Shown: positions 1,910 to 29,545 of the stretch, piece by piece
Numbering within the stretch: the first letter of the stretch is position 1
How the letters are laid out: each line of letters opens with the position of its first letter
From: Saururus chinensis
Taxonomy: Eukaryota; Streptophyta; Magnoliopsida; Piperales; Saururaceae
Length of the DNA stretch: 64,000 bases
Direction of reading: 5' to 3'
Assembly: GCA_035235625.1 (NCBI GenBank)
Contig: CP141146.1
Location: 6,380,501-6,444,500, forward strand
Notes under the pieces: generated by a model
What the model was told of the DNA's origin: nothing
What the model saw: only the letters and a program-made list of their open reading frames with translations
The model's database searches: none
Made by a program: the position numbers and the translations under genes

Positions 1910-4540
1910 CCTAAATTAATAGCTGGCAAAAGAATTTTATTTTATATTAATACTTTTATTTTGATAAATAAGTAATTGGGTACTTCAAAAAGAATATTAT
2001 AAGTTTATTTTTCCAATTTTATGATTAAAAAATTATTATTATTTTAAATATAACTATTAATATCTAACGAACAACATGCAACTATGCAAATAAGAAAAAA
2101 AAACACACCAAAAACGGAGAGAATGTTCAATCATCATCTCAGGCCAATCACGATGTGGCCTAGAGTCTAAGCATACAAATTCACAAGTGGCCGGCAAGAG
2201 CACCAATGCCCACCAGGCTCGTATCGGCTCTTGATGAATCACACGCGATACCACGCTGCCCTCCTCTTTGCAAACTGAAAAAAAAAAAGAAAAAGAAGAA
2301 GAAGACAGCGACGGGCCACCTGACCCCAAACCCCCACCAACAAAACCCCAAAGGCCATAGCCATAGCCATGGATGTTCTTTCTGTGTTTTTTTCCCCTGA
2401 TACATATATGAAAAAACCGCTCACACAGAAGAAGCATCAATGAATTCAATTGGCAACTTTAAAAAACCTGGCACCTTATTAACCCAAGAATGCAAGCCCC
2501 AAATGAGCTGAGCATGCCTAGGTGAGATTTTTTTTTGTCAGACCGGACATAAATTAAACTCAACTGGGTTTTTAACTTTTTATAACATTGGCCCTATTAT
2601 CCTCCCGCTGAGCATGGGACAAAGACACTTCCCAGAAAGGCTTTAGGGCAGCAAGCGTATTAGTCTTCATCTTTTGCATTGATCCCTATTAGCGTCCCAT
2701 ATTCTTTTTGGTCTTAAAGACAAGTAAGCACTTTCACATCCTTTGCCACTAATTAGTATTGGGAAATATTTTTTTATGTTTTTCACTAACGGTGAACCTA
2801 GCTTAAGTTACATACAAGAGTTCTTAATATTTAAAATTGATTAGTACATATTAGCATCAAATTGATGCTAACTTGCACTAATATGTCCACCTTCAATTTT
2901 CATGGATAAACTTCAATAATCTCATGGATAGACTAATTATCCGTGGGAGTATGAAAAAAAAGCACCGATCACACAACGTGTTTGGGACTGGGCCCCATTT
3001 ACACATGTGTGTATTGCATGTGGCAAAGATAGCGTGGGCCCCACGGTGCACCAAAGAAGATTGAAGACCGAAAGAGTCAAAATGTTGTTCTCCTCATTTT
3101 AAAACTGATCATGATGATTTGGTGGGATTATAACTAAACCAGACTTGATCTTACACTGCTTTTTGGAGGCTTGTTGAGGGAGGAGGAAGAAGTGGTTTTG
3201 GTTGGGCTGGGCATTTGGCGTGAGTGTCCAACAACTGTGTCCACATCCCCACGTGGAATGGCCTGCAGTATTTATGCGATAGATATGGAAGGTTCTGCCT
3301 CCCAAACTCTTGCCTGCAATGGGCAGATTAGGGCCAGAGATAGCAAAGAAGAAAGTGGTTGGATTGTTCGGTGGTTAACCAATTCAACTCCTCCTGCCCA
3401 CACGCTACTGTCTCTCTTTTTGCCTTTTTCTCCACTCTTTATCATAATTTGACAATCATATCCTTATGAAATGCACTCGCCATATTTAGGGTTTTCGCCA
3501 TAATTTAACTTAATTGAAGTTTAGAGTGATTCAACCCAACCTAATTAAAATTATAAATATTTTTTTTATATTTTAATAATGCTTAACTTTACCCGACTTT
3601 AATAGGTTTGGTTTAGGTTTCTAAATCTAACCCAGACAGCTATTCGAGTTGGGTTTAAATTATTATTATTTAAATAATAATCATGTTCAGGTTTAGCAAA
3701 ACCAGACACAAACCCAACTCAGTGACATCTCTCTATGTGTCGAGTAGATCGCTATCAAATTTCGACTTAATAGTGCGTGTTATAAAAAGGCAGGTGGGTA
3801 ATTTACACCCGCTAACCTAACGTCGTCAAATGACGATCACATGGTACATATAATGTGTTTAACACACGCTTTACTAAACGTGTCCGGCGCGTACTAACGA
3901 GACTCGTCACATTTACTTAGTTTTTTCTTTGGTGCTTGTTTGCGTATGCTATTTGGAACCACAAATCCTTTGTCGGCCCGGCTTTAATGTCTCTGCTGCA
4001 CCAGAGGTTTGTGGTCTCCTATTAAGGGCCCATAATTAGGTGCAAATTCAACTAGTGGGTAGGCCACGAGAAACCGGTTCAGGCTGGTTTGGGCCGAAAT
4101 TGGGTTAACTAAAGTACGAATCATTAAAAAAAGACGTTTCCGGTAATTTCCCTTTTACATTTCAACCTTCCACAGGGGATTTTTATCTACTTCTTGATCC
4201 TTCTTACTAAAAAAAAGTTACTTTTTGATTGTAATTCAAGACTCGGAAAATGAGGTTACGCAAACATTATAATTAAGTTATCTATTATAATTAGCTTAAG
4301 TTATTTACATATATCACCTGTTTCTTTAATATTTGAAGTGGATTGCTTAATAACATTTTTAACTAAGCACTCTACATAAATAATGAATCCGATGACTTCA
4401 GCTCCTTTTTTTCCTTGTCTTGCATCTTTCTTTAGTCTTCCCTGACCTTTGCCAAACTCTGCCCTGTGATCTCTATCTATACAGCTCTGCCTAGCCTATT
4501 CATTCCAAGCCTCATTCCTTACTTCTACCTTCACCATTGT
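1910..4540. other. Intergenic DNA, no gene seen
   Basis: It holds an A-rich tract followed by AAG units (about 2278-2306), a possible MITE at 2785-2945 and AT-rich DNA at 3500-3720 with repeated 'aacccaac/gttgggtt' words, such as occur in subterminal parts of hAT-type elements. The frames on both strands at 2057-2449 are compositionally biased and not convincing genes. Confidence 0.5.
2785..2945. repeat. Possible MITE of family B (degenerate)
   Basis: The centre is a perfect inverted repeat, TTAGCATCAA at 2851-2860 against TTGATGCTAA at 2862-2871. It is flanked by 'acatattag' and 'cactaatatgt', matching the arrangement in the centre of the family-B MITEs at 19.5, 26.1 and 33.8 kb. The outer ends are too decayed to place exactly. 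Confidence 0.35.
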
Positions 4541-16367: not shown

Positions 16368-16877
16368 CAAATTTTGTACAATATATGTATAATATAATAT
16401 TCAACTATGATATTAATTTTATTCTAAGTTGAATATATTTACTTTATGCATAATAAATATTTTTAACTTTTGAAAAATAATACAAGATTTTTTACATTTT
16501 TTTGTAATATATTCAAAATTTGATATACAACTATTTTAAAGTAAAAAACTCCAAATCAACTTGATTCAAATAATTTTAGAGCAAGTTCGAGTCTTTAAAT
16601 TTTTTAATATTAAGTTAAAGTAATATTCCCTCCATCCCATTACTATAATTTTTTAAAATAGAATACCAAATAGAACTATTAATATAGGAAAGACAGACTA
16701 TAAAGTTATCATGAGAGGTGTAAGGCCAAAGGAAAAAATGTTGTTTGTGATTAGGGTACAAAAGTTTGGAGCAGGCTTTGTGAACTACCGCAATTGGGTT
16801 TGTAAAAGTGTGGGTTGCTTGACATTGACAAGCTGAGGATAGTGGGCAGACAACATAAAAAATGTTATGCAGTAAAC

Positions 16878-17060
16878 TTAGACCAAGTGCACTAAGTATA
16901 CCAGCTTAATCATGCATTGGCAGGAGGAGTAATCAAAAGGATATGATTCAAAGCTGAACTTTCCTGGCTGCGGTATGCCTTGGTCAGCTTCTGCGTCTCT
17001 GTTACTTCGGTTTGGTCCAAAGATACGTTCATGCATCAACCTGACATATTGAAACATCAA
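16878..17060 (-). other. Unassigned open frame, preserved in both duplicates
   Basis: A minus-strand 60-residue frame (MMFQYVRLMHERIFGPN...) that is identical in unit 2 at 22154-22336. Identity may only reflect a recent duplication. I recognise no family and see no clear exon partners. It lies about 3.2 kb beyond the stop codon of the CCT gene, on the same strand. Confidence 0.25.
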
Positions 17061-17469
17061 GAAACAAAAGAAGTTCTACAAGTTGATGATCGGACAACTA
17101 GTTTCAAAGTGGAAGGATTTGGTCGGCTTGTTTACTCGCCTGAACAGGGTTAACGGATTTAAATCACCCGCCGGCCCATTTGATCCGATCTGACAAATCA
17201 CGATCAGACGAATCGCATCATTTCCTTACCAAAAACCAACTTACCAATTTTTTACTTAAAAACAAAAAATGACAAACACAAACATTCATACATTACCAGG
17301 CATAACAACACATAAAAAACTGATTTTATGAGATCTTTAGTTATGAGAATTTTTGAACAAATTAAAAGGCATCAATCCCTTGATCATTAGGGTTATGATT
17401 TGTCACTGACATTTCTGTGTCGGTCAAAAAAGGGTCTTTAAGCATTCTGGCTTGTCCCTTCTTTTAGGG

Positions 17470-17667
17470 TTAATCTATTTGCTCTGGCTCCTCTTTTACA
17501 AGTGCAAACCGCATTGCTTTCTTCCAGCTTTGTGGGGGCCTCCCCAGTGTTGGTAAAATGGCAATCCAATGGAGGGTTAGGGTATGTGCACGTATTAAGC
17601 AGTCAATTATATCAAAGCTGGAATCATGAAAATTCCCATCTCCTCTGACTCCTTTTGTTGGGTGCAT
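17470..17667 (-). other. Unassigned open frame, preserved in both duplicates
   Basis: A minus-strand 65-residue frame ending in ...ALVKEEPEQID, identical at 22746-22943. No family was recognised. An overlapping plus-strand frame (17655-17861) follows 'tttcctccctcag', a reasonable splice acceptor, so a non-coding or small spliced transcript cannot be excluded. Confidence 0.2.
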
Positions 17668-18868
17668 GCTTAAACATATGTTTTCCTCCCTCAGATGATG
17701 CCCTTTGTTTCCCTTTTGCTTTTAATGAGGAATCAGTTGCTCGTGTTGAACACCTATACTACTCGCAGAAGAACAGCTCAAACTGTTACAAGTTTGTTCT
17801 TCTAATTGTTTTTGGATCAAATTCTTTCAAATGTTTTACACAACTACATGTTCCTTTTTAGGCTTTTGCAGCTGTTATGCTCGCCAATTAAAGCATAAGG
17901 ATATTTATGATCAACGTGTGATTGAGATATTAATATGAAAAGAGTTAGATTGTCATCTTTACAAACAAATCTGCGAATTCAATCAAGATATCATAATTTA
18001 ATTTGGAGGAGAATTAGTTGTACAAAAGAGGCTTAAGAAGGCATCCAATCATTAAACCCGTGCACTGGACCTCTCACCTTCTAATGATCGTATCCTATGC
18101 TTTTTTATGCATACCCACCTCCATTAAAGCACTAAGGCTGCTGGCAGTCCAAGCTAGTGAATGACCGGATCTGTCAAACACCAAATACTGCAAAATCACA
18201 CTGCATCGAATCACTCAGAATTGGAAGTCGTGGAGATACTCATGGCGGAATCAAACAACAAAAGATAGCCCAGATTGGCCAAGATTCAGCACCAAGAGCC
18301 AATGGGGCTGGAGCTCTTGCTGTAGCTGAGCACCAGGACTCAAAAGGATTCTGCTACAAGCACAGCCTGGGCCCATGGATTTCATGAAACATCATGGGTG
18401 TCCCCTACTATTTCGAGGAGACTTCGCTGTCTCTTTGATGGATTTTTCCCTTGAACTTTAGGATTTGGCCTTAGGGTGAGTGTTATTCACTGGTGTATCC
18501 TACTATCAAAGAGTAACACACTCATTGTTATGTCCCAGTCAAGATCTTCCACCCAAGAGAGAGCTATTGCCTCCCAACAAAGCCTATGCAATGTAATGAA
18601 CCCGTACTAATACCATTGGGCAGAAGAAAGGCAATCTGTGTTCCACTCTTTTATCCTTTGCCTGTTTAGCTTTCACTGGTGGAAGCCTACATGGTGTCTG
18701 TCCCTCTTGAATTGTCTGATTCTTGTCAACCCAAGTTGCATAATCATTCGTGAACAATGCTAAGCAACATGCCCTGCACAAGAGTTTGGCGTGTTACATG
18801 GAATACGGTGTTCTGTCATTTTTCAAGAGCATCATAAAATTTCCATCAAAGTCAACTATTAGGAGGAA

Positions 18869-19461
18869 TAGGGGTGTTAAAGTAAGTTTGAAAATTAGAC
18901 TTAGTTCAATTCGATTTTGAGCTTGAACTCGAAGTTGGTCAAACCAAACTCGAACATACCTTTACTTGGCTTGATACAATTCGACTCAAAATTTTTTTGA
19001 ACACATTATGTATTAATTTTTAAAATATATACATACAGATATATTATACTATATATAGATTTTCTATCTCCCAACTTTCAACTCTTTCCATCAGTTATAT
19101 CATTTTCATTTTTTTTTTAAATACAACTACCTCAAACTTTTTGTTAGAAAAAATATATAATGTCTCATAAAAATGAGAACCATTTTTTATAGAATTTTAC
19201 TCCCTCTATCCTATTATAATAATCTAGATTAGAAAATCAAAATCAATTAAAATTAGTTCATTTTATTTTCTAATCTTAACCCATTGGACAACTTTTTGAT
19301 CATATTTGTATTAGTAATTTTTTTAAGTACCTCCGGCTTACAAAACTAAGTAATGATCACAGGTTAAAGTAACTTGACTAGATACAAACTCCAAATTAAA
19401 ATTTCAAATTCAAGCCAAAATAATATAAAATTCAATGATATACAGCTTGTTAACACCTCTA
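18869..19461. mobile_element. hAT-type non-autonomous element in unit 1
   Basis: Starts TAGGGGTGTTAA and ends TTAACACCTCTA, near-perfect inverted ends of hAT type. The interior has Leu/Phe/Glu-codon-like words ('gagcttgaactcgaagttgg', 'tcgaac') typical of hAT subterminal repeats. 'aggagga' flanks both sides, consistent with a degraded 8-bp target duplication. Unit 2 has the same right end, but about 430 bp of the left part is deleted there. Confidence 0.6.
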
Positions 19462-19475
19462 GAGAGGAGGATATA

Positions 19476-19651
19476 GGAAAGAGTTTTTACTGCTCCTCAT
19501 TGATAATAAACCTAGGCCTTCATCCACAAGATCAATAATGTATGTGCTAGTATATGTTAGTATTACTTACGCTAACATATGTACCATCAAGGGCTTCTAT
19601 ACGTGGCTTAAACTAGGCTCATTCTCAATAAAGAGCATAAAAACCTCTTCC
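19476..19651. repeat. MITE family B, copy in unit 1
   Basis: Inverted ends of about 40 bp: GGAAAGAGTTTTTACTGCTCC on the left, complementary to 'gagcataaaaacctcttcc' on the right. An internal 'tatatgttag...ctaacatatg' forms a second inverted pair. It is shorter than its twin at 26073-26266 by a deletion of about 20 bp near 19513. Confidence 0.8.
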
Positions 19652-20226
19652 ATCTACGAGACTTGCTCTCGTAAACCTTATAAGGCAGAGTTAGTTGAAT
19701 TGGCAGTTGATTTCTTTTGTGGTAGGACCTACAAGCCGACAGGGTAAACTGGTGGACCTCTTCCACCCTTTTTACAAGACAAAGCGCCGGCTCTGGCCAA
19801 CGAAGTGTTGCTTGCGTTTGGAAATTTGTCACCAATGCCACACGTTTATGCCCGGTTATTGCTTATTAAACTTCGTCAAGATCATTGTCATCTTCATCAC
19901 CATGGTAGACAATAAGAATAGAAGCTAATTTAGTAGAAGAAGCAATGATTACAACACCTTCTATTAGCTTTGGCATAATTAAAATTGTACTACAAAGGCA
20001 GGGGAGACACACCCTTAGGAAAGGGAAGAAGGACCCAACCAATGGTGGGACAATAATGGAGCCTATTATCTTATTGGACAAATTAATATATTTACACTTA
20101 GCAAAATGACTTTGGGTGCTTTGTCTTCTTTATTCCCACTATCTTGGTGCATGTTAATTTCACCAGACAGATGCCAAACTCTCTCCAAAAACTGATGGCC
20201 TTCTACCACTTCCACTCCCATTCCAC

Positions 20227-21638
20227 TCAGCTGCTCTTCTCATGGAACATAAGGAATCCAGATTCCATGTACTGGAGCTGTGGGCTACCAATGTCGTACA
20301 ACCCATCAAACTGAAACACAGAACGTCAACATTAGAGGCAGCTTTCATTATGCATTTATAAAAAGCTACTATCCTAGTACTATAGCTAATAATCCAAAAG
20401 GGTAAGAATAATGGATGTCAAGAAGACCTAATGGTCTGTTGATCATCATTGGCATGGGAGGAGCCAATACTGGAGTATACACACTAAGAATTGATGGTCC
20501 TCACTTGGGAAGTCTGAATTATAAGCTCTAAATGGAGAGTTTTTACTGATGGTGAACTCATGCAGTGTAGAGTCTGTATCTTACCCAGAATTCTTCTTCA
20601 TCTTCATCAAGTGTCTGGCTGGCAACAGCTTTAGGAACTTCACCAACTTCGTCGTTTCTGGCGAACCTCCCTCGCACCCTTGGCCTACTGTCTGCTAAGG
20701 TCTTCCTGCATGCGTACTTTGATAGACAAAGAAAAAAAAAACCAAAAAATAAGCTTTCCTCTCTCCCTCAAAACAAACAATCAAGTAATGGAGAAGTGAA
20801 TGCAAATGGATCTATATCATACTTTGATTGTCTTGTTGAAATTCCTCTGAGCCCGCTTCCTCCTGTAGCGATGGATCCTTAGCTTTCTCTCTTCCGGGCT
20901 ATAACGCCCCACGTGTAGGCCCGGCTCCTCCATGCACGAGGAATTCTCAAGACCTTGCTGATTTGGCGACCCATAAGCTGTCTGCATTTTGTTGAACTTC
21001 TAAAGACAAAACGATAGAATAATTAGTGCTTAGGAAATCCCCAGAGAAAGGATTGTAGTTTGCAACAATATAAATGACGGTGAATCTTTTACTTGCAAGT
21101 CGCCCGTGCTACAGACCCTTCTCATGGGTCCGCCGATCCCACCATTTTGGCTCGAGTTCGGAGCTTCAATTCGGAGTCTCTGCAACTCTGACAGACAAGA
21201 GATGTGGGAGTGAAGGATAAAGCTCGACTTCTGATTGAGAGAGTGGCTGCTGAAGCTCCTCTGCATCAGCCCCTGCTCATCAAAATCAAAAGCAATTGAA
21301 TCCGAACTCTCGGACTTCACTCCCAGGATATCCGAAGCATTCATATGGAGAACACCGTTGGACGGAAGGTGAGTTGTTGTAAATGATGATTCAAGAGAGA
21401 GTCCTTGCATTTCCAGGTTGGGTGGAGAGGAAGAGAGCTGAGACAAAGAGGAGGCAGGGAGGCAAGGAGCAGATGAATGGGAATGGTATGGAACGTTGGA
21501 GATGAAACCGGAGCCGCCCGTTGGTGGGTCGGGGAAGTGCAAGAAGGGGTCAGAGAGGAAGTCGAGGTCAGAAGGGATGAGATCCGGAGAGTGGCGAAGG
21601 AAGGCGTCATCGAAAAGGAAGACCTTAGAGAAGGACAT
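20227..21638 (-). CDS. CCT-domain protein (no B-box), tandem copy 1
   Basis: A nuclear regulator family; CCT domains bind NF-Y partners and DNA, and many members control flowering time. Four exons on the minus strand: 21638-21093, 20999-20823, 20716-20585 and 20310-20227. All junctions are GT/AG and in phase 0, giving 312 aa. Exon 1 (1-182) is acidic and Ser-rich, with FDFDEQGLMQR and ending in MRRVCSTGDLQ, a signature before the CCT domain in this subgroup. The CCT domain (about 212-262) runs from VGRYSPEER to RGRFARND and is split by an intron after NKTIK, a usual position. The C-terminus is acidic (DEDEEEFW), then short. ATG 21638 is the first in-frame ATG, in context GCCTCCATGT. No B-box is present, so it is not a CONSTANS-type protein. 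The acceptor of exon 3 is CAAAG after a T-rich tract. Confidence 0.88.
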
Positions 21639-22038
21639 GGAGGCCACTAAGACAAAGGCCAAGACAGGGGAGCTCAAAACAAAGGAGTTGAAGATGGGAG
21701 GGAAGCAAAATTTGTCTTCTTAAAGAGTTCAATTATGATCTAGCTGTCGTTAATTTAATTTATAATCAAAATTAAATTGAACAAAAGTTGGAATTTGGCA
21801 TCTAAGTTGCAAAATAGGACAAGTGTGGGTCCTCCAACCATAGGCCCATCAAAGAGGCAGCTAGGCTTGGTATCATTTTTCTCTAGGCTTTGGCTTAATA
21901 ATCCCCAACTTAAACAAACAATGTTAAATAAAGCAGTACTCAATTAGTATATGTTGGAAAGCTCTCTTTCAAAGCTAGTGTTTGGGTCAAAGAGACACCA
22001 CCTGAGAAACATTAAACAATCACCACCCAACAATTTTA
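21639..22038 (-). promoter_or_regulatory. Upstream region of CCT gene copy 1
   Basis: About 400 bp are shared nearly unchanged with copy 2 before the duplication break. This leaves the two genes with the same proximal promoter but different distal sequence: copy 1 abuts unit 2, whereas copy 2 abuts unique DNA after 28623. No clear TATA box was identified. Confidence 0.5.
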
Positions 22039-24237
22039 GAGCAGGCTTTGGCTTTGTTAACTACCACAATTGGGTTTGTAAAAGTGTGGGTTGCTTGACA
22101 TTGACAAGCTGAGGATAGTGGGCAGACAACATAAAAAATGTTATGCAGTAAACTTAGACCAAGTGCACTAAGTATACCAGCTTAATCATGCATTGGCAGG
22201 AGGAGTAATCAAAAGGATATGATTCAAAGCTGAACTTTCCTGGCTGCGGTATGCCTTGGTCAGCTTCTGCGTCTCTGTTACTTCGGTTTGGTCCAAAGAT
22301 ACGTTCATGCATCAACCTGACATATTGAAACATCAAGAAACAAAAGAAGTTCTACAAGTTGATGATCGGACAACTAGTTTCCAAGTAGAAGGATTTGGTC
22401 GGCTTGTTTACTCGCCTGAACAGGGTTAACGGATTTAAATCACCCGCCGGCCCATTTGATCCGATCTGACAAATCACGATCAGACGAATCGCATCATTTC
22501 CTTACCAAAAACCAACTTACCAATTTTTTACTTAAAAACAAAAAATGACAAACACAAACATTCATACATTACCAGGCATAACAACACATAAAAAACTGAT
22601 TTTATGAGATCTTTAGTTATGAGAATTTTTGAACAAATTAAAAGGCATCAATCCCTTGATCATTAGGGTTATGATTTGTCACTGACATTTCTGTGTCGGT
22701 CAAAAAAGGGTCTTTAAGCATTCTGGCTTGTCCCTTCTTTTAGGGTTAATCTATTTGCTCTGGCTCCTCTTTTACAAGTGCAAACCGCATTGCTTTCTTC
22801 CAGCTTTGTGGGGGCCTCCCCAGTGTTGGTAAAATGGCAATCCAATGGAGGGTTAGGGTATGTGCACGTATTAAGCAGTCAATTATATCAAAGCTGGAAT
22901 CATGAAAATTCCCATCTCCTCTGACTCCTTTTGTTGGGTGCATGCTTAAACATATGTTTTCCTCCCTCAGATGATGCCCTTTGTTTCCCTTTTGCTTTTA
23001 ATGAGGAATCAGTTGCTCGTGTTGAACACCTATACTACTCGCAGAAGAACAGCTCAAACTGTTACAAGTTTGTTCTTCTAATTGTTTTTGGATCAAATTC
23101 TTTCAAATGTTTTACACAACTACATGTTCCTTTTTAGGCTTTTGCAGCTGTTATGCTCGCCAATTAAAGCATAAGGATATTTATGATCAACGTGTGATTG
23201 AGATATTAATATGAAAAGAGTTAGATTGTCATCTTTACAAACAAATCTGCGAATTCAATCAAGATATCATAATTTAATTTGGAGGAGAATTAGTTGTACA
23301 AAAGAGGCTTAAGAAGGCATCCAATCATTAAACCCGTGCACTGGACCTCTCACCTTCTAATGATCGTATCCTTTGCTTTTTTATGCATACCCACCTCCAT
23401 CAAAGCACTAAGGCTGCTGGCAGTCCAGTGAATGACCGGATCTGTCAAACACCAAATACTGCAAAATCACACTGCATCGAATCACTCAGAATTGGGAGTC
23501 GTGGAGATACTCATGGCGGAATCAAACAACAAAAGATAGCCCAGACTGGCCAAGATTCAGCACCAAGAGCCAATGGGGCTGGAGCTCTTGCTGTAGCTGA
23601 GCACCAGGACTCAAAAGGATTCTGCTACAAGCACAGCCTGGGCCCATGGATTTCATGAAACATCATGGGTGTCCCCTACTATTTCGAGGAGACTTCGCTG
23701 TCTCTTTGATGGATTTTTCCCTTGAACTTTAGGATTTGGCCTTAGGGTGAGTGTTATTCACTGGTGTATCCTACTATCAAAGAGTAACACACTCATTGTT
23801 ATGTCCCAGTCAAGATCTTCCACCCAAGAGAAAGCTATTGCCTCCCAACAAAGCCTATGCAATGTAATGCACCCGTACTAGTACCATTGGGCAGAGGAAA
23901 GGCACTGTGTGTTCCACTCTTTTATCCCTTGCCTGTTTAGCTTTCACTGGTGGAAGCCTACATGGTGTCTGCCCCTCTTGAATTGTCTGATTCTTGTCAA
24001 CCCAAGTTGCATAATCATTCGTGAACAATGCTAAGCAACATGCCCTGCACAAGAGTTTGGCGTGTTACATGGAATACGGTGTTCTGTCATTTTTCAAGAG
24101 CATCATAAAATTTCCATCAAAGTCAACTATTAGGAGGAATATGGGTGTTAAAGTCAACTATTTGTATTAGTAATTTTTTTTAAGGACCTCTGGCTTACAT
24201 AACTAAGTAATGATCACAAGTTAAAGTAACTTGACTA

Positions 24238-25968
24238 TAGGGGTATTCACGAACGTCTAATGTCCGTTTGTCCATCCGTATCCGCGTCCATAAATGCATA
24301 GAGTGGATAAATTTTTTAGTCCGGGGCGGATGCAGACCCTTACCATTAAATTTATCCGTCCTTGTAGGTGCCTGCGGACACGGACAATAGTGCGGACGTC
24401 TGCGTCCGCCACCTAATTGGAAATTACTATTCATCTTCTGTTTAGGGCTTCACAGTTCACAAAAGTTACTGTTCACCGCAAAAGTTACTGTTCACCGGAG
24501 TTCTTCTTCGCCATAGTTGTCTCCTCCGTAGTCGGGCGAGGAGACGGGATTTGCAGTCGTAATTTCGCAACCGCTCTACCGTAAGTTTTGCATCTGCAAC
24601 GTCCGATCTCCCCTCTCTGTGAGTTCCTCCTACTTTCGGTTGATTCTCAGAATTTGTATTCCATCTTGCAGCCTCAATGGACCGGTTTTTGGTGTTGATG
24701 GTTGCTGCTAATGGGAACAGGTGAAGCGTGCGTAGAGGTGTTCTGGCTCGGAGACGGGATTTGTGGTGCTCCGGCTCACACCGTCGTGTTGTTGCCGTGC
24801 CATCGTTCGTCGATATGCCGCCATTCCGCCGCATATTTTACTTCTGCAGCGTCCAAATTTCGATTCCCCTCTCTCTGTGAGTTCTCACTGCGAATTTTAC
24901 TTCTGCCGCGTTTGGTTGATGCTAATGGGAAAAGGGGCAGCGTTGAGTGTTTTCTCTGTGGACCTCTTCCTTGGACCGGCTCTGCTCGTAACCGGGTTTT
25001 GTTGATCTAATTACTGATTTTGTTTTCAACAGTATTATTCAATTTACCTTTCCCAGTTCTTACCTTTTTGAAGAAACGAGTCAGGTCTACCATATTTATA
25101 AGTGATCCCAATCACTCCAATCTCTCCACTAAGGCCTTCATGAACCATGTGGAGCTCTAAATGATAGCTGCAAACAAATAACAAGTATGACAAATTATAT
25201 GTCAATAATTCAAACTCCTGTCCCATTAAAAATAAAAAATGGAACTCCTGTGCAATAGTGAATATGACATAAAGGACATGAACCAGCTCAGGTTCATCAC
25301 ATATAAAATTAAAGTGGATACATATCAGGGCTACCTCTTTTCTGATGGCTCTGTTGATTGTGTGATAATTGTGGTTGTTTGATTGAATTTTTTTTGTTGG
25401 TCTTTGTGTCTTTAGATACATATGAGTTAATTATTATTTCGATATAGACATAGTGGTTATATTTCTTATGTTTAGATGGGTTTGCTCTTAAATGTAATCT
25501 TATATTAGTCAAGCACTTTTTCTTAGGATGTATTAAAAGTGTCATAAAAATTGAAAATCCTTAAAAGAGACTAGGCAAGAACTTTGCACGGTATGACCAA
25601 TTAATCTCATTAAATTATTTAATTGATTTGCAATACGTTTTTGTTTATTTGGTTTAGCGAATAAAAAATATTTCTTGCCCATTTGTTGCATGCCGTTATT
25701 ATTTTTTGGCTTATATTTATTTTATGAATATGATCTTTTTATGATACATAGAAGCTTTATTAATTTTGTTCTAACAATAATGATGTGTGATTTTTTTATT
25801 CAGGATTGGGTATTGGTTCTCATTGAGTTATTATTATGTCTACTCATAAAAGGAAAAGAGTTCTTGATAGTGAAACTAAAATTTGCTCTTCAAGTCCAAA
25901 TCAAACTACTCTTGAAGTAGAAGAAAATTCACATAATGGGTTAGTATCAAGTGAAATTGGATCTTCAA
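24238..25968 (+). mobile_element. Truncated hAT transposon carrying a foreign exon
   Basis: Begins TAGGGGTATTCACGAACGTC, a hAT-like 5' end, followed by repeated GTCCG/CGGAC words (24260-24410), as in hAT subterminal regions. It is flanked by CTTGACTA (24230-24237) and GTTGACTA (25969-25976), an 8-bp target duplication with one mismatch. The insertion is absent from unit 1, so it followed the duplication. The right end lacks the complementary ...CCCCTA terminus and stops inside the start of a transposase-like frame, so the 3' part is lost. The element also holds one alpha-carbonic anhydrase-like exon in the opposite orientation. Confidence 0.65.
25064..25167 (-). pseudogene. Captured exon of an alpha-type carbonic anhydrase
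   Basis: A 104-bp stretch on the minus strand is bounded by a proper acceptor (TTTGCAG at 25174-25168) and donor (GTAAGA starting at 25063). It encodes YHLELHMVHEGLSGEIGV and then IGITYKYGRPDSFLQK, with the first and last codons split. This matches the central strand of plant alpha-carbonic anhydrases (pattern ELHMVH...AVIGI.YK.GRPD.FL), which reversibly hydrate CO2, usually in the secretory pathway or chloroplast. The flanks look like intron. No other exon of the gene was found, so no enzyme can be made. It sits antisense to the transposase frame of the surrounding hAT element. Confidence 0.7.
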
Positions 25969-25973
25969 GTTGA
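25836..25973 (+). pseudogene. N-terminal fragment of a hAT transposase
   Basis: After an acceptor ('tttattcag' ending at 25802), ATG 25836 opens a 45-residue frame starting MSTHKRKRVLDSE and rich in Ser, Asn and Glu, like the region before the BED zinc finger in plant hAT transposases. It ends at a TGA created by the junction with flanking DNA at 25969-25973. No zinc finger, RNase H core or dimerisation domain remains. Confidence 0.5.
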
Positions 25974-26072
25974 CTAGACACAAACTCCAAATTAAAATTT
26001 CAAGTTCAAGCCAAAATAATATAAAATTCAATGATATTCGGCTTGTTAACACCTCTAGAGAGGAGGATATAG

Positions 26073-26266
26073 GGAAGAGTTTTTACTGCTCCTCATTGAT
26101 AATAAACCTAGTGTAAGCTACACACGGGGAGCCTTCATCCACAAGATCAACAATGTATGTGCTAGTATATGTTAGTATTACTTACGCTAACATATGCACC
26201 ATCAAGGGCTTCTATGCATGGCTTAAACTAGGCTCATTCTCAATAAAGAGCATAAAAACCTCTTCC
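26073..26266. repeat. MITE family B, copy in unit 2
   Basis: Best-preserved member. The left end GGAAGAGTTTTTACTGCTCC and the right end (complement GGAAGAGGTTTTTATGCTC) pair over about 40 bp. It includes 'gtgtaagctacacacggg', which the twin in unit 1 has lost. Confidence 0.85.
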
Positions 26267-26816
26267 ATCTACGAGACTGTGCTCTCGTAAGCCTTACAAT
26301 GCAGAGTTAGTTGAATTGGCAGTTGATTTCTTTTGTGGTAGGACCTACAAGCCGAGAGGGTAAACTGGTGGACCTCTTCCACAGAGCCGACGAAGTGTTG
26401 CTTGTGTTTGGAACTTTTTCACCAATGCCACACATTTCTGCTCGGTTGTTGCTTATTAAACTTCGTCAAGATCATTGTCATCTTCATCACCATGGTAGAC
26501 AATAAGAATAGAAGCTAATTTAGTAGAAGAAGCAATGATTACAACACCTGCTATTAGCCTTGGCATAATTAAAATTGTACTACAAAGGCAGGGGAGACAC
26601 ACCCTTAGGAAAGGGAAGAAGGACCCAACCAATGGTGGGACAATAATGGAGCCTATTATCTTATTGGACAAATTAATATATTTACACTTAGCAAAATGAC
26701 TTTGGGTGCTTTGTCTTCTTTATTCCCACTATCTTGGTGCATGTTAATTTCACCAGACAGATGCCAAACTCTCTCCAAAAACTGATGGCCTTCTACCACT
26801 TCCACTCCCATTCCAC

Positions 26817-28228
26817 TCAGCTGCTCTTCTCATGGAACATAAGGAATCCAGATTCCATGTACTGGAGCTGTGGGCTACCAGTGTCGTATAACCCATCAAA
26901 CTGAAACACAGGACGTCAACATTAGAGGCAGCTTTCATTATGCATTTACAGAAAGCTACTCTCCTAGTGCTACTCTCCTAGTACTGTAGCTAATAATCCA
27001 AAAGGGTAAGAATAATGGATGTCAAGAAGACCTAATGGTCTGTTGATCCTCATGACATGGGAGGAGCCAATACTGGAGTATACACACTAAGAATTGATGG
27101 TCCTCACTTGGGAAGTCTGAATTATAAGCTCTAAATGGAGAGTTTTTATTGATGGTGAACTCATGCAGTGCAGAGTCTGTATGTTACCCAGAATTCTTCT
27201 TCATCTTCATCAAGTGTCTGGTTGCCAACAGCTTTAGGAACTTCACCAACTTCGTCGTTTCTGGCAAACCTCCCTCGCACCCTTGGCCTACTGTCTGCTA
27301 AGGTCTTCCTGCATGCGTACTTTGATAGACAAAGAAAGAAAAAACCAAAAACTAAGCTTTCCTCTCTCCCTCAAAACAAACAATCAAGTAATGGGGAAGT
27401 GAATGTATCATACTTTGATTGTCTTGTTGAAATTCCTCTGAGCCCGCTTCCTCCTGTAGCGATGGATCCTTAGCTTTCTCTCTTCCGGGCTATAACGCCC
27501 CACGTGTAGGCCCGGCTCCTCCATGCACGAGGAATTCTCAAGACCTTGCTGATTTGGCGACCCATAAGCTGTCTGCATTTTGTTGAACTTCTAAAGACAA
27601 AACGATATAATAATTAGTGCTTAGGAAATCCCAGAGAAAGGATTGTAGTTTACAACAATATAAATGACGGTGAATCTTTTACTTGCAAGTCGCCCGTGCT
27701 ACAGACCCTTCTCATGGGTCCGCCAATCCCACCATTTTGGCTCGAGTTCGGAGCTTCAATTCGGAGTCTCTGCAACTCTGACAGACAAGAGATGTGGGAG
27801 TGAAGGATAAAGCTCGACTTCTGGTCGAGAGAGTGGCTGCTGAAGCTCCTCTGCATCAGCCCCTGCTCATCAAAATCAAAAGCAATTGAATCCGAACTCT
27901 CGGACTTCACTCCTAGGATATCCGAAGCATTCATATGGAGAACACCGTTGGACGGAAGGTGAGTTGTTGTAAACGATGATCCAAGAGAGAGTCCTTGCAT
28001 TTCCAGGTTGGGTGGAGAGGAAGAGAGCTGAGACAAAGAGGAGGTAGGGAGGCAAGGAGAAGATGATTGGGAATGGTATGGAACGTCTGAGATGAAACCG
28101 GAGCCGCCCGTTGGTGGGTCGGGGAAGTGCAAGAAGGGGTTAGAGAGGAAGTCGAGGTCGGAGGGGATGAGATTCGGAGAGTGGCGAAGGAAGGCGTCAT
28201 CGAAAAGGAAGACCTCAGAGAAGGACAT
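26817..28228 (-). CDS. CCT-domain protein (no B-box), tandem copy 2
   Basis: Duplicate of the gene at 20227-21638 with the same exon plan: 28228-27683, 27590-27414, 27319-27188 and 26900-26817, 312 aa. All splice signals, the start and the stop are kept. By eye, exon 1 differs from copy 1 at about 16 of 546 bases, nine of them changing an amino acid (for example SK to SE, LSD to LSN, LES to LGS). Exons 2 and 3, which encode the CCT domain, give the same protein. Exon 4 has one change (DIG to DTG). Both copies therefore look functional. Downstream, copy 2 has the hAT insertion about 0.85 kb past its stop. Confidence 0.88.
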
Positions 28229-28623
28229 GGAGGCCACTGAGACGAAGGCAAAGACAGGGGAGCTCAAAATAGAGGAGTTGAAGATGGGAGGGAAGTGAAA
28301 TTTGTCTTCTTAAAGAGTTCAATTATGATCTAGCGGTCGTTAATTTATAATCAAAATTAAATTGAACAAAAGTTGGAATTTGGCATCCAAGTTGCAAAAT
28401 AGGACAAGTGTGGGTCCTCCAACCATAAGCCCATCAAAGAGGTAGCTAGGCATGGTATCATTTTTCTCTAGGCTTTGGCTTAATAATCCCCAACTTAAAC
28501 AAACAATGCTAAATAAAGCAGTATTCAATCAGTTCATGTTGGAAAGCTCTCCTTCAAAGCTAGTGCTTGGGTCAAAGAGACACCACCTGAGAAACATTAA
28601 AGAATCACCACCCAACAATTTTA
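28229..28623 (-). promoter_or_regulatory. Upstream region of CCT gene copy 2
   Basis: Same as the copy 1 upstream region, except for a small deletion near 28341 ('gttaatttataatc' against 'gttaatttaatttataatc') and a few substitutions. Sequence beyond 28623 is unique to copy 2. Confidence 0.5.
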
Positions 28624-29545
28624 TAGAAACTTTGAGATTTCTTGGCAGCTAGGAGAGAACTATTGATGCACTTTGTGCTTTTTTTTCTGCTAGGAAGTAT
28701 TCTGTTGTAGATTTTTTTTCTAGAGGTAAATCTTTTTGCCCCGTTTGCAAGATGGAACATGTGCATGTATGAGCTTTACCTATACAAAGGATGGAGGCCT
28801 TCACATCCACCCAAAGCACCATTGAGGGCATGATGTGTAACATTACTCGTGGCAATATTAATGTGATCTTAGGGAGCTTTAATACTCACTCCATCCTAAA
28901 ATAAGTGTCTTATTTTAGTTTTTTAAAATAAATTAATTTTAGTTTATTTTAGAAAATTAAATAGGACACTTATTTTAGGACGTAGAGAGTAATAAATAAA
29001 AGAGAGTATTTCATAAATGGAGGTTTTGTGGTATTAAAGACTAGTTTGTATGCTCATTATAAATTTGATTAATATTTATTGGTGCGGGGAAAGTATTGAA
29101 CTGTTGGAATCTAAATTAAATGTATTGATAGTCTAATTCCTAATAGCTCGAGCATTTGGGAACAATAGTTGTCTAACACTCTACTAACATATATTTATGT
29201 AGAAATACCTTATTATAATTATCTTTCACATAAATTTTATAACAAATATGAAATTTTCAAATAAGGAAATAAAGTACTACCTTTTTTAGGGTTTTTGATA
29301 CTCATCTTAAAATGAGAAAAACCCTAGGGTTTACTCATCTCCTTCTAGGTTTAGATATGGGGATCTTTTAAAAAATAATTAATGTTTTCTTCCATGATCG
29401 TGATTGTCATTATCAGTCGTGCTGTTGTGCGCAACCTGGCTGCTAGATCTAGCCATGGTTGTGCCTAAGCGAATGGAAGGGCGCCTATGTGAGAGCAGCA
29501 ATTGTGACACCCAAGAACTTTCTAGCATTATATTATAGAAAATTT
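28624..29545. other. Intergenic DNA with MITE, no gene seen
   Basis: Apart from the hairpin at 28883-28991, no feature can be supported. Sequence is AT-rich. Confidence 0.5.
28883..28991. repeat. MITE family C (mariner/Stowaway-like), near-perfect hairpin
   Basis: TACTCACTCCATCC at the left and GGACGTAGAGAGTA at the right, with 'tcctaaaataagtgtctt' pairing with 'aggacacttattttagga'. Only about 110 bp long. Confidence 0.7.

Follow-up and report, generated by a model that had tools for sequence, protein, structure and literature searches.

In Saururus chinensis, a hAT transposable element was found to carry a piece of an alpha-carbonic anhydrase (alpha-CA) gene, comprising one exon with both of its splice signals, whose intact donor lies on another contig of the same genome. 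The copy in question is located in the window, the stretch of 64,000 nucleotides analysed here (C7:6380501-6444500); the genome searched comprised 516 Mb in 11 contigs. Very probably, a hAT element copied one alpha-CA stretch once and then amplified, with the window copy having decayed and the exon being a passenger. In such a course of events, a plant hAT element with coding capacity would have copied parts of introns 3 and 4 together with exon 4 into its 5' leader, where a single capture replaced ~253 bp; through subsequent transposition, the chimera would have given rise to five or more descendants. One of these, now decayed, would be the window copy, which landed downstream of one of two duplicated CCT-motif genes and whose 3' end was lost afterwards; its exon would be a passenger without demonstrated role. 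An earlier note on this DNA had reported an alpha-CA exon at 25064-25167 inside a hAT element, and this observation was confirmed; its interpretation was partly supported, as capture stood, whereas use of the exon did not.

The captured exon occupies positions 25064 to 25167 of the window on the minus strand, antisense to the hAT transposase, and reads C, YHLELHMVHEGLSGEIGVIGITYKYGRPDSFLQK and G from 25167 down to 25064. It is bordered by a splice acceptor AG (25168-25169, minus strand; preceding sequence TTATTTGTTTGCAG) and a splice donor GT (25062-25063, minus strand; following sequence GTAAGAAC). The last 14 bases of the acceptor and the first 9 bases of the donor are the same as in the native gene. 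The captured alpha-CA segment as a whole (25021-25322, minus strand) corresponds to positions 2813-3249 of the donor locus L029 (C1:46645812-46646248). In a translated search, the 34-amino-acid exon peptide alone gave weak matches to alpha-CA entries of the PDB (4x5s, E 0.0018; Dioscorin 5, 4twl, E 0.14), and no Pfam match at E ≤ 1, for which the peptide is too short. Its alpha-CA identity was settled by the DNA match to the donor gene: a 285-base query (25046-25330) aligned to C1:46645965-46646248 with 93% identity (E 1.1e-115). The predicted minus-strand exon of 104 bp with AG/GT borders, encoding an alpha-CA segment, was thus borne out by its sequence and the donor match. The length of 104 bp is true of the window copy, but not of the native exon, which has 103 bp; in the window copy, an additional A close to the end of the exon shifts the reading frame. 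Likewise, the proposed clean single-exon capture did involve one alpha-CA exon, but what was taken up is a genomic fragment with intron pieces, and 122 bp of captured intron (donor L029 2844-2965) are deleted in the window copy. When zinc-histidine motifs were looked for, the captured exon was found to hold ELH only, without HWH. Alpha-CA binds zinc through three histidines, two in HWH (exon 3) and one in ELH (exon 4); exon 4 carries one of the three and therefore cannot form an enzyme alone.

The donor is an intact alpha-CA gene on the minus strand of contig C1, and the captured exon is its exon 4. The gene has at least six exons, and six (85, 218, 107, 103, 159, and 54 bp) were defined in a stretch that excludes its 3' end; they are in phase and encode 242 residues without a stop. 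All introns have GT at the 5' and AG at the 3' border; the third opens with a weak GTTTTG. The product matched the Pfam domain Carb_anhydrase (PF00194, E 1.6e-33), had Dioscorin 5 as its best PDB relative (E 1.7e-58), aligned with alpha-CA across 198 residues and contains both HWH and ELH. Intron 3 harbors a TA-flanked hairpin (L029 3256-3363) with CTCCCTC ends and 52-nt arms that are 85% complementary, presumably a Stowaway-like, MITE-like sequence. Elsewhere in the genome, eight Carb_anhydrase matches were observed within ~130 kb (C3:22119232-22247793), which suggests a tandem array of alpha-CA genes.

A genome search for capture-bearing copies with a 455-bp donor query found six places, namely, the donor and five hAT copies (C5:22373230, C6:43130241, C2:35234304, C1:42596566, and the window copy on C7). 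These five carriers are among at least 24 places, window included, that match from the first base of the element. Both a 5' end and a terminal inverted repeat-like 3' end were located in 12 of the 17 relatives examined, while five (L037, L039, L044, L045, and L046) lack one end in the fetched stretch. The 5' ends mostly read TAGGGGTGTTCAC... and the 3' ends mostly TGAACACCCCTA. Perfect 8-bp target-site duplications flank 8 of the 12; one has 7 of 8 bases (L030), and three show no match (L033, L036, and L040). Seven relatives measured 4.5 to 4.8 kb, and three capture carriers 1.4 to 2.2 kb. BED finger, hAT RNase-H, and hAT dimerisation domains were present in both full-length relatives scanned (L043 and L030), neither of which is intact (5 and 30 stops, respectively, counted in single-frame stretches). 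The element belongs to an Ac-like hAT family; its many relatives across the genome and the transposase domains of the full-length ones support the original identification of the surrounding DNA as a hAT element. The C6 carrier (C6_L030) is 4,824 bp long and has both ends, target sites CTTTAGGC/CTTTAGGG, and all three domains (zf-BED, RNase-H, and dimerisation). Capture between hAT ends with target-site duplications was seen in C6_L030 and C5_L031 and is cut short in C2_L032.

The capture is 437 to 455 bp long, consisting of an intron piece, the exon, and a second intron piece, and replaced ~253 bp of hAT leader, as measured in L034. Of the relatives fetched, 13 (L034 to L046) do not carry it. 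Seven of them (L034, L035, L036, L037, L044, L045, and L046) were aligned; L038 to L043 lacked a clear left anchor and were kept out of that alignment. In each of the seven, the interval between the two junction points is filled by different sequence, which measures 253 bp in L034, is of similar length in L035, L037, and L044, and is shorter in L036, L045, and L046. The left junction is identical in all five carriers. The right one is unaltered in two, the window copy and C5_L031; C6_L030 shows a small deletion there, and the sequences of C2_L032 and C1_L033 stop short of it. Compared with the donor, 2 alignment columns differ in all four aligned carriers, and five further columns plus an 8-bp gap differ in the three long carriers, C1_L033 ending short of that stretch. 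Since five carriers have the same left junction, one capture followed by amplification would be the simplest reading of their sequences. The distance K to the donor is 0.045 for the window copy (276 sites), 0.059 for the C6 copy (269 sites), and 0.062 for the C5 copy (272 sites). Assuming substitution rates of 4.5-6.5e-9 per site and year, these values would correspond, very roughly, to ~3 to 7 million years.

At the left junction, element sequence ending in ...CTAATTACTGA is followed by 3 extra bases and then by donor TGTTTTC. At the right junction, as read from the alignments, donor ...GGATACA passes into element ATATCAGGG with a 1-bp overlap. Immediately before the left junction, 12 of 15 bases are shared between element and donor, a score that 5 of 5,000 random position pairs attained. 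On the right, the edge of the donor segment (L029 3249) is separated from the intronic hairpin by 7 nt. The short similarity before the junction, the extra bases, the overlap, and the nearby hairpin point to template switching as the most likely mechanism: synthesis during repair of a break would have switched to the alpha-CA gene as template and then rejoined the element. Several points weigh against the overall reading, its mechanism included. The mechanism is drawn from junction sequence in one genome, the window size of the random-pair control was chosen post hoc, after the junction had been seen, and the hairpin may postdate the capture. Both borders of the exon survive in no more than three copies, and the right junction is unaltered in just two; in the donor gene, exon 3 ends at the weak splice donor GTTTTG. 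The direction of the capture, like its age, is likewise read within this one genome.

At the locus itself, the 3'-truncated element spans 24238 to 25960 on the plus strand. It opens with the terminal inverted repeat TAGGGGTATTCA (start at 24238: TAGGGGTATTCACGAACG) and is preceded by a left target-site duplication, CTTGACTA, at 24230-24237 (plus strand). Its hAT leader contains diverged internal direct repeats at 24532-24943, spaced by ~210 to 258 bp. The start of a transposase frame (MSTHKRKRVLDS...), whose domains are found in full-length relatives, lies at 25836-25960 (plus strand), where it is cut off; the window copy gave no Pfam match. Among the 14 relatives listed, 13 continue with element sequence beyond 25960, and C5_L031 diverges sooner. 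The window copy has the 5' terminal inverted repeat TAGGGGTGTTCA only, with 1 match in the window. Of the element bounds first assigned, 24238 to 25968, the start stood, but homology to relatives stops near 25960 and the 3' terminal inverted repeat is lost. In place of the 3' part, a filler, ATCTTCAAG, occupies 25961-25969 (plus strand), 8 of its 9 nucleotides repeating 25887-25894, 75 nt upstream; TCTTCAAGT is also found at 25887-25895. The filler is followed at 25970-25976 (plus strand) by a right target-site duplication with 7 of 8 bases (TTGACTA). hAT excision often turns a flanking base into its complement. A footprint of this kind, C to G at 25969, was considered and is not claimed, as the filler TCTTCAAG explains the G equally.

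The 7 of 8 retained target-site bases and a filler that mostly repeats nearby sequence point to abortive repair at the 3' end, and the truncation most likely stems from a second, abortive gap repair following excision. An ordinary deletion or an assembly effect is the less likely explanation, though one to be taken seriously: deletions are common, and the eighth target-site base differs. Against it, the break coincides with the target-site duplication, and the filler is mostly a repeat of sequence close by, as would be expected of repair where an element has excised. Ds deletion derivatives arise from Ac by abortive gap repair, and the window copy resembles them in missing a portion of the element and having filler where the ends meet; it differs in that one terminal inverted repeat is lost altogether.

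Captured gene fragments have been suggested to act through small RNAs, and the ~100 nt of alpha-CA exon lie antisense to the transposase. Alpha-CA sequence in the hAT leader might accordingly be a source of small RNAs directed at the donor gene, or of ones by which the hAT family is silenced. We regard this as improbable, given that only five copies were found and that most of the captured sequence is intron.

Still more doubtful is that the exon is used, i.e., spliced into chimeric transcripts, for instance by read-through from the CCT gene or by antisense transcription of the hAT element. Judged by its native splice sites, splicing of the window exon is possible; acceptor and donor equal those of the native gene, and the exon is on the same strand as the CCT gene. 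In addition, a maize gene is known to have acquired a new splice donor from a Pack-hAT insertion (PMC8903248), and this case supports use of the exon. On the other hand, the exon lies ~2 kb past the CCT stop codon (copy B, 27161-27163, minus strand), which is upstream of it on that strand. Its copies have also not kept their frame in common: in addition to the +1 frameshift in the window, the exon is 100 bp in C6_L030 (three bases lost, frame open) and 99 bp in C5_L031 (four bases lost, frame lost), and C2_L032 is cut within it, with 91 nt remaining. A Pfam scan of the 7.5 to 9.5 kb surrounding the three remaining copies with the exon detected no domain on the strand of the exon, which counts against use as well, although short exons can escape such a scan, as the captured one does, and the opposite strands of L031 and L032 were not included. 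The proposal of a shuffled, working exon is therefore not supported, and there is very little chance that the captured exon is spliced at insertion sites and the hAT element acts as a mobile exon donor that encodes its own mover.

A native alpha-CA pseudogene with a transposon merely adjacent, as the retained splice signals and intron of the exon might suggest, can be dismissed almost entirely as its origin: in copy A of the tandemly duplicated stretch that holds the CCT gene, the site is empty and contains none of the captured sequence; hAT copies on C6, C5, C2, and C1 share the left junction, and the copy on C5 also shares the right junction; and, as a weaker point, no Carb_anhydrase Pfam match was found on the minus strand of 16701-26690 or, genome-wide, on C7, in scans that also miss the captured exon. 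A native pseudogene at this locus was hence rejected on the grounds of the empty site and the junctions shared with other contigs, and the transposon origin proposed initially is upheld by that site together with the five capture-bearing hAT copies.

The empty target site (CTTGACTA, 19373-19380, plus strand) lies in copy A (16774-22041, no strand assigned), which was delimited by self-BLAST and contains a gene with a CCT motif (PF06203). Copy B (22050-28626, no strand assigned) is broken by the hAT insertion. Because copy A shows the site empty, the insertion came after the duplication, as had been stated at the outset. The arms of the duplication are uneven, being 98.96% identical over the first 2.1 kb and 94.1% over the last 2.7 kb, which suggests later gene conversion or a second event. 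Furthermore, ~420 bp (18884-19302) are present in copy A only, ~80 bp from the point of hAT insertion in copy B, and represent an insertion in copy A or a deletion in copy B.

Gene capture by hAT elements has already been published, and the case described here is a well-resolved new member. The rarity emphasized at first was overstated: Du et al. (2011; PMC3260210) call gene fragments rare in hAT elements, but report 11 such elements in maize (2 Ds2 and 9 Ds-l4), and Pack-hAT elements figure as a class of their own in Gisby and Catoni (2022; PMC8903248). Ds2-22, which holds two exons and an intron, and Ds-l4-354 (PMC3260210) are similar in being Ac/Ds-type hAT elements that contain a gene fragment with intron from a donor on another chromosome. 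The element studied here differs from both in its single exon, its five copies, and a C6 copy with all three transposase domains. It shares hAT ends, 8-bp target-site duplications, captured coding DNA, and multicopy clusters with Pack-hAT elements (PMC8903248). Pack-TYPE elements as treated there are non-autonomous, however, and elements with a transposase match of >250 bp are set apart; C6_L030 has transposase domains, so that the capture-bearing lineage is not strictly Pack-TYPE. In animals, 208 of 370 Pack-TIRs are hAT elements, and a gap-filling model has been set out (PMC8277862). There, hAT-N8_XT with a CAPSL fragment is comparable, as its capture was amplified to several chromosomes and gap filling with short similarity at breakpoints is invoked; these elements differ in being from animals and in carrying a 5' untranslated region fragment, and the authors are unsure that multicopy cases fit gap filling. 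A 2026 review of such mechanisms (PMC13317346) states that there might be a mechanism, as yet undiscovered, by which DNA transposons capture unlinked gene fragments. Judged by title or the start of the abstract, alpha-CA capture itself was not described among the matches listed from open-licence literature, a weak negative.

The biological effect of the capture is probably nil. The case is unusually complete in that one genome contains the donor, elements that carry the captured piece and elements that lack it, junctions held in common, five descendants, and an empty site, and the capture step of a hAT element thereby becomes readable base by base.
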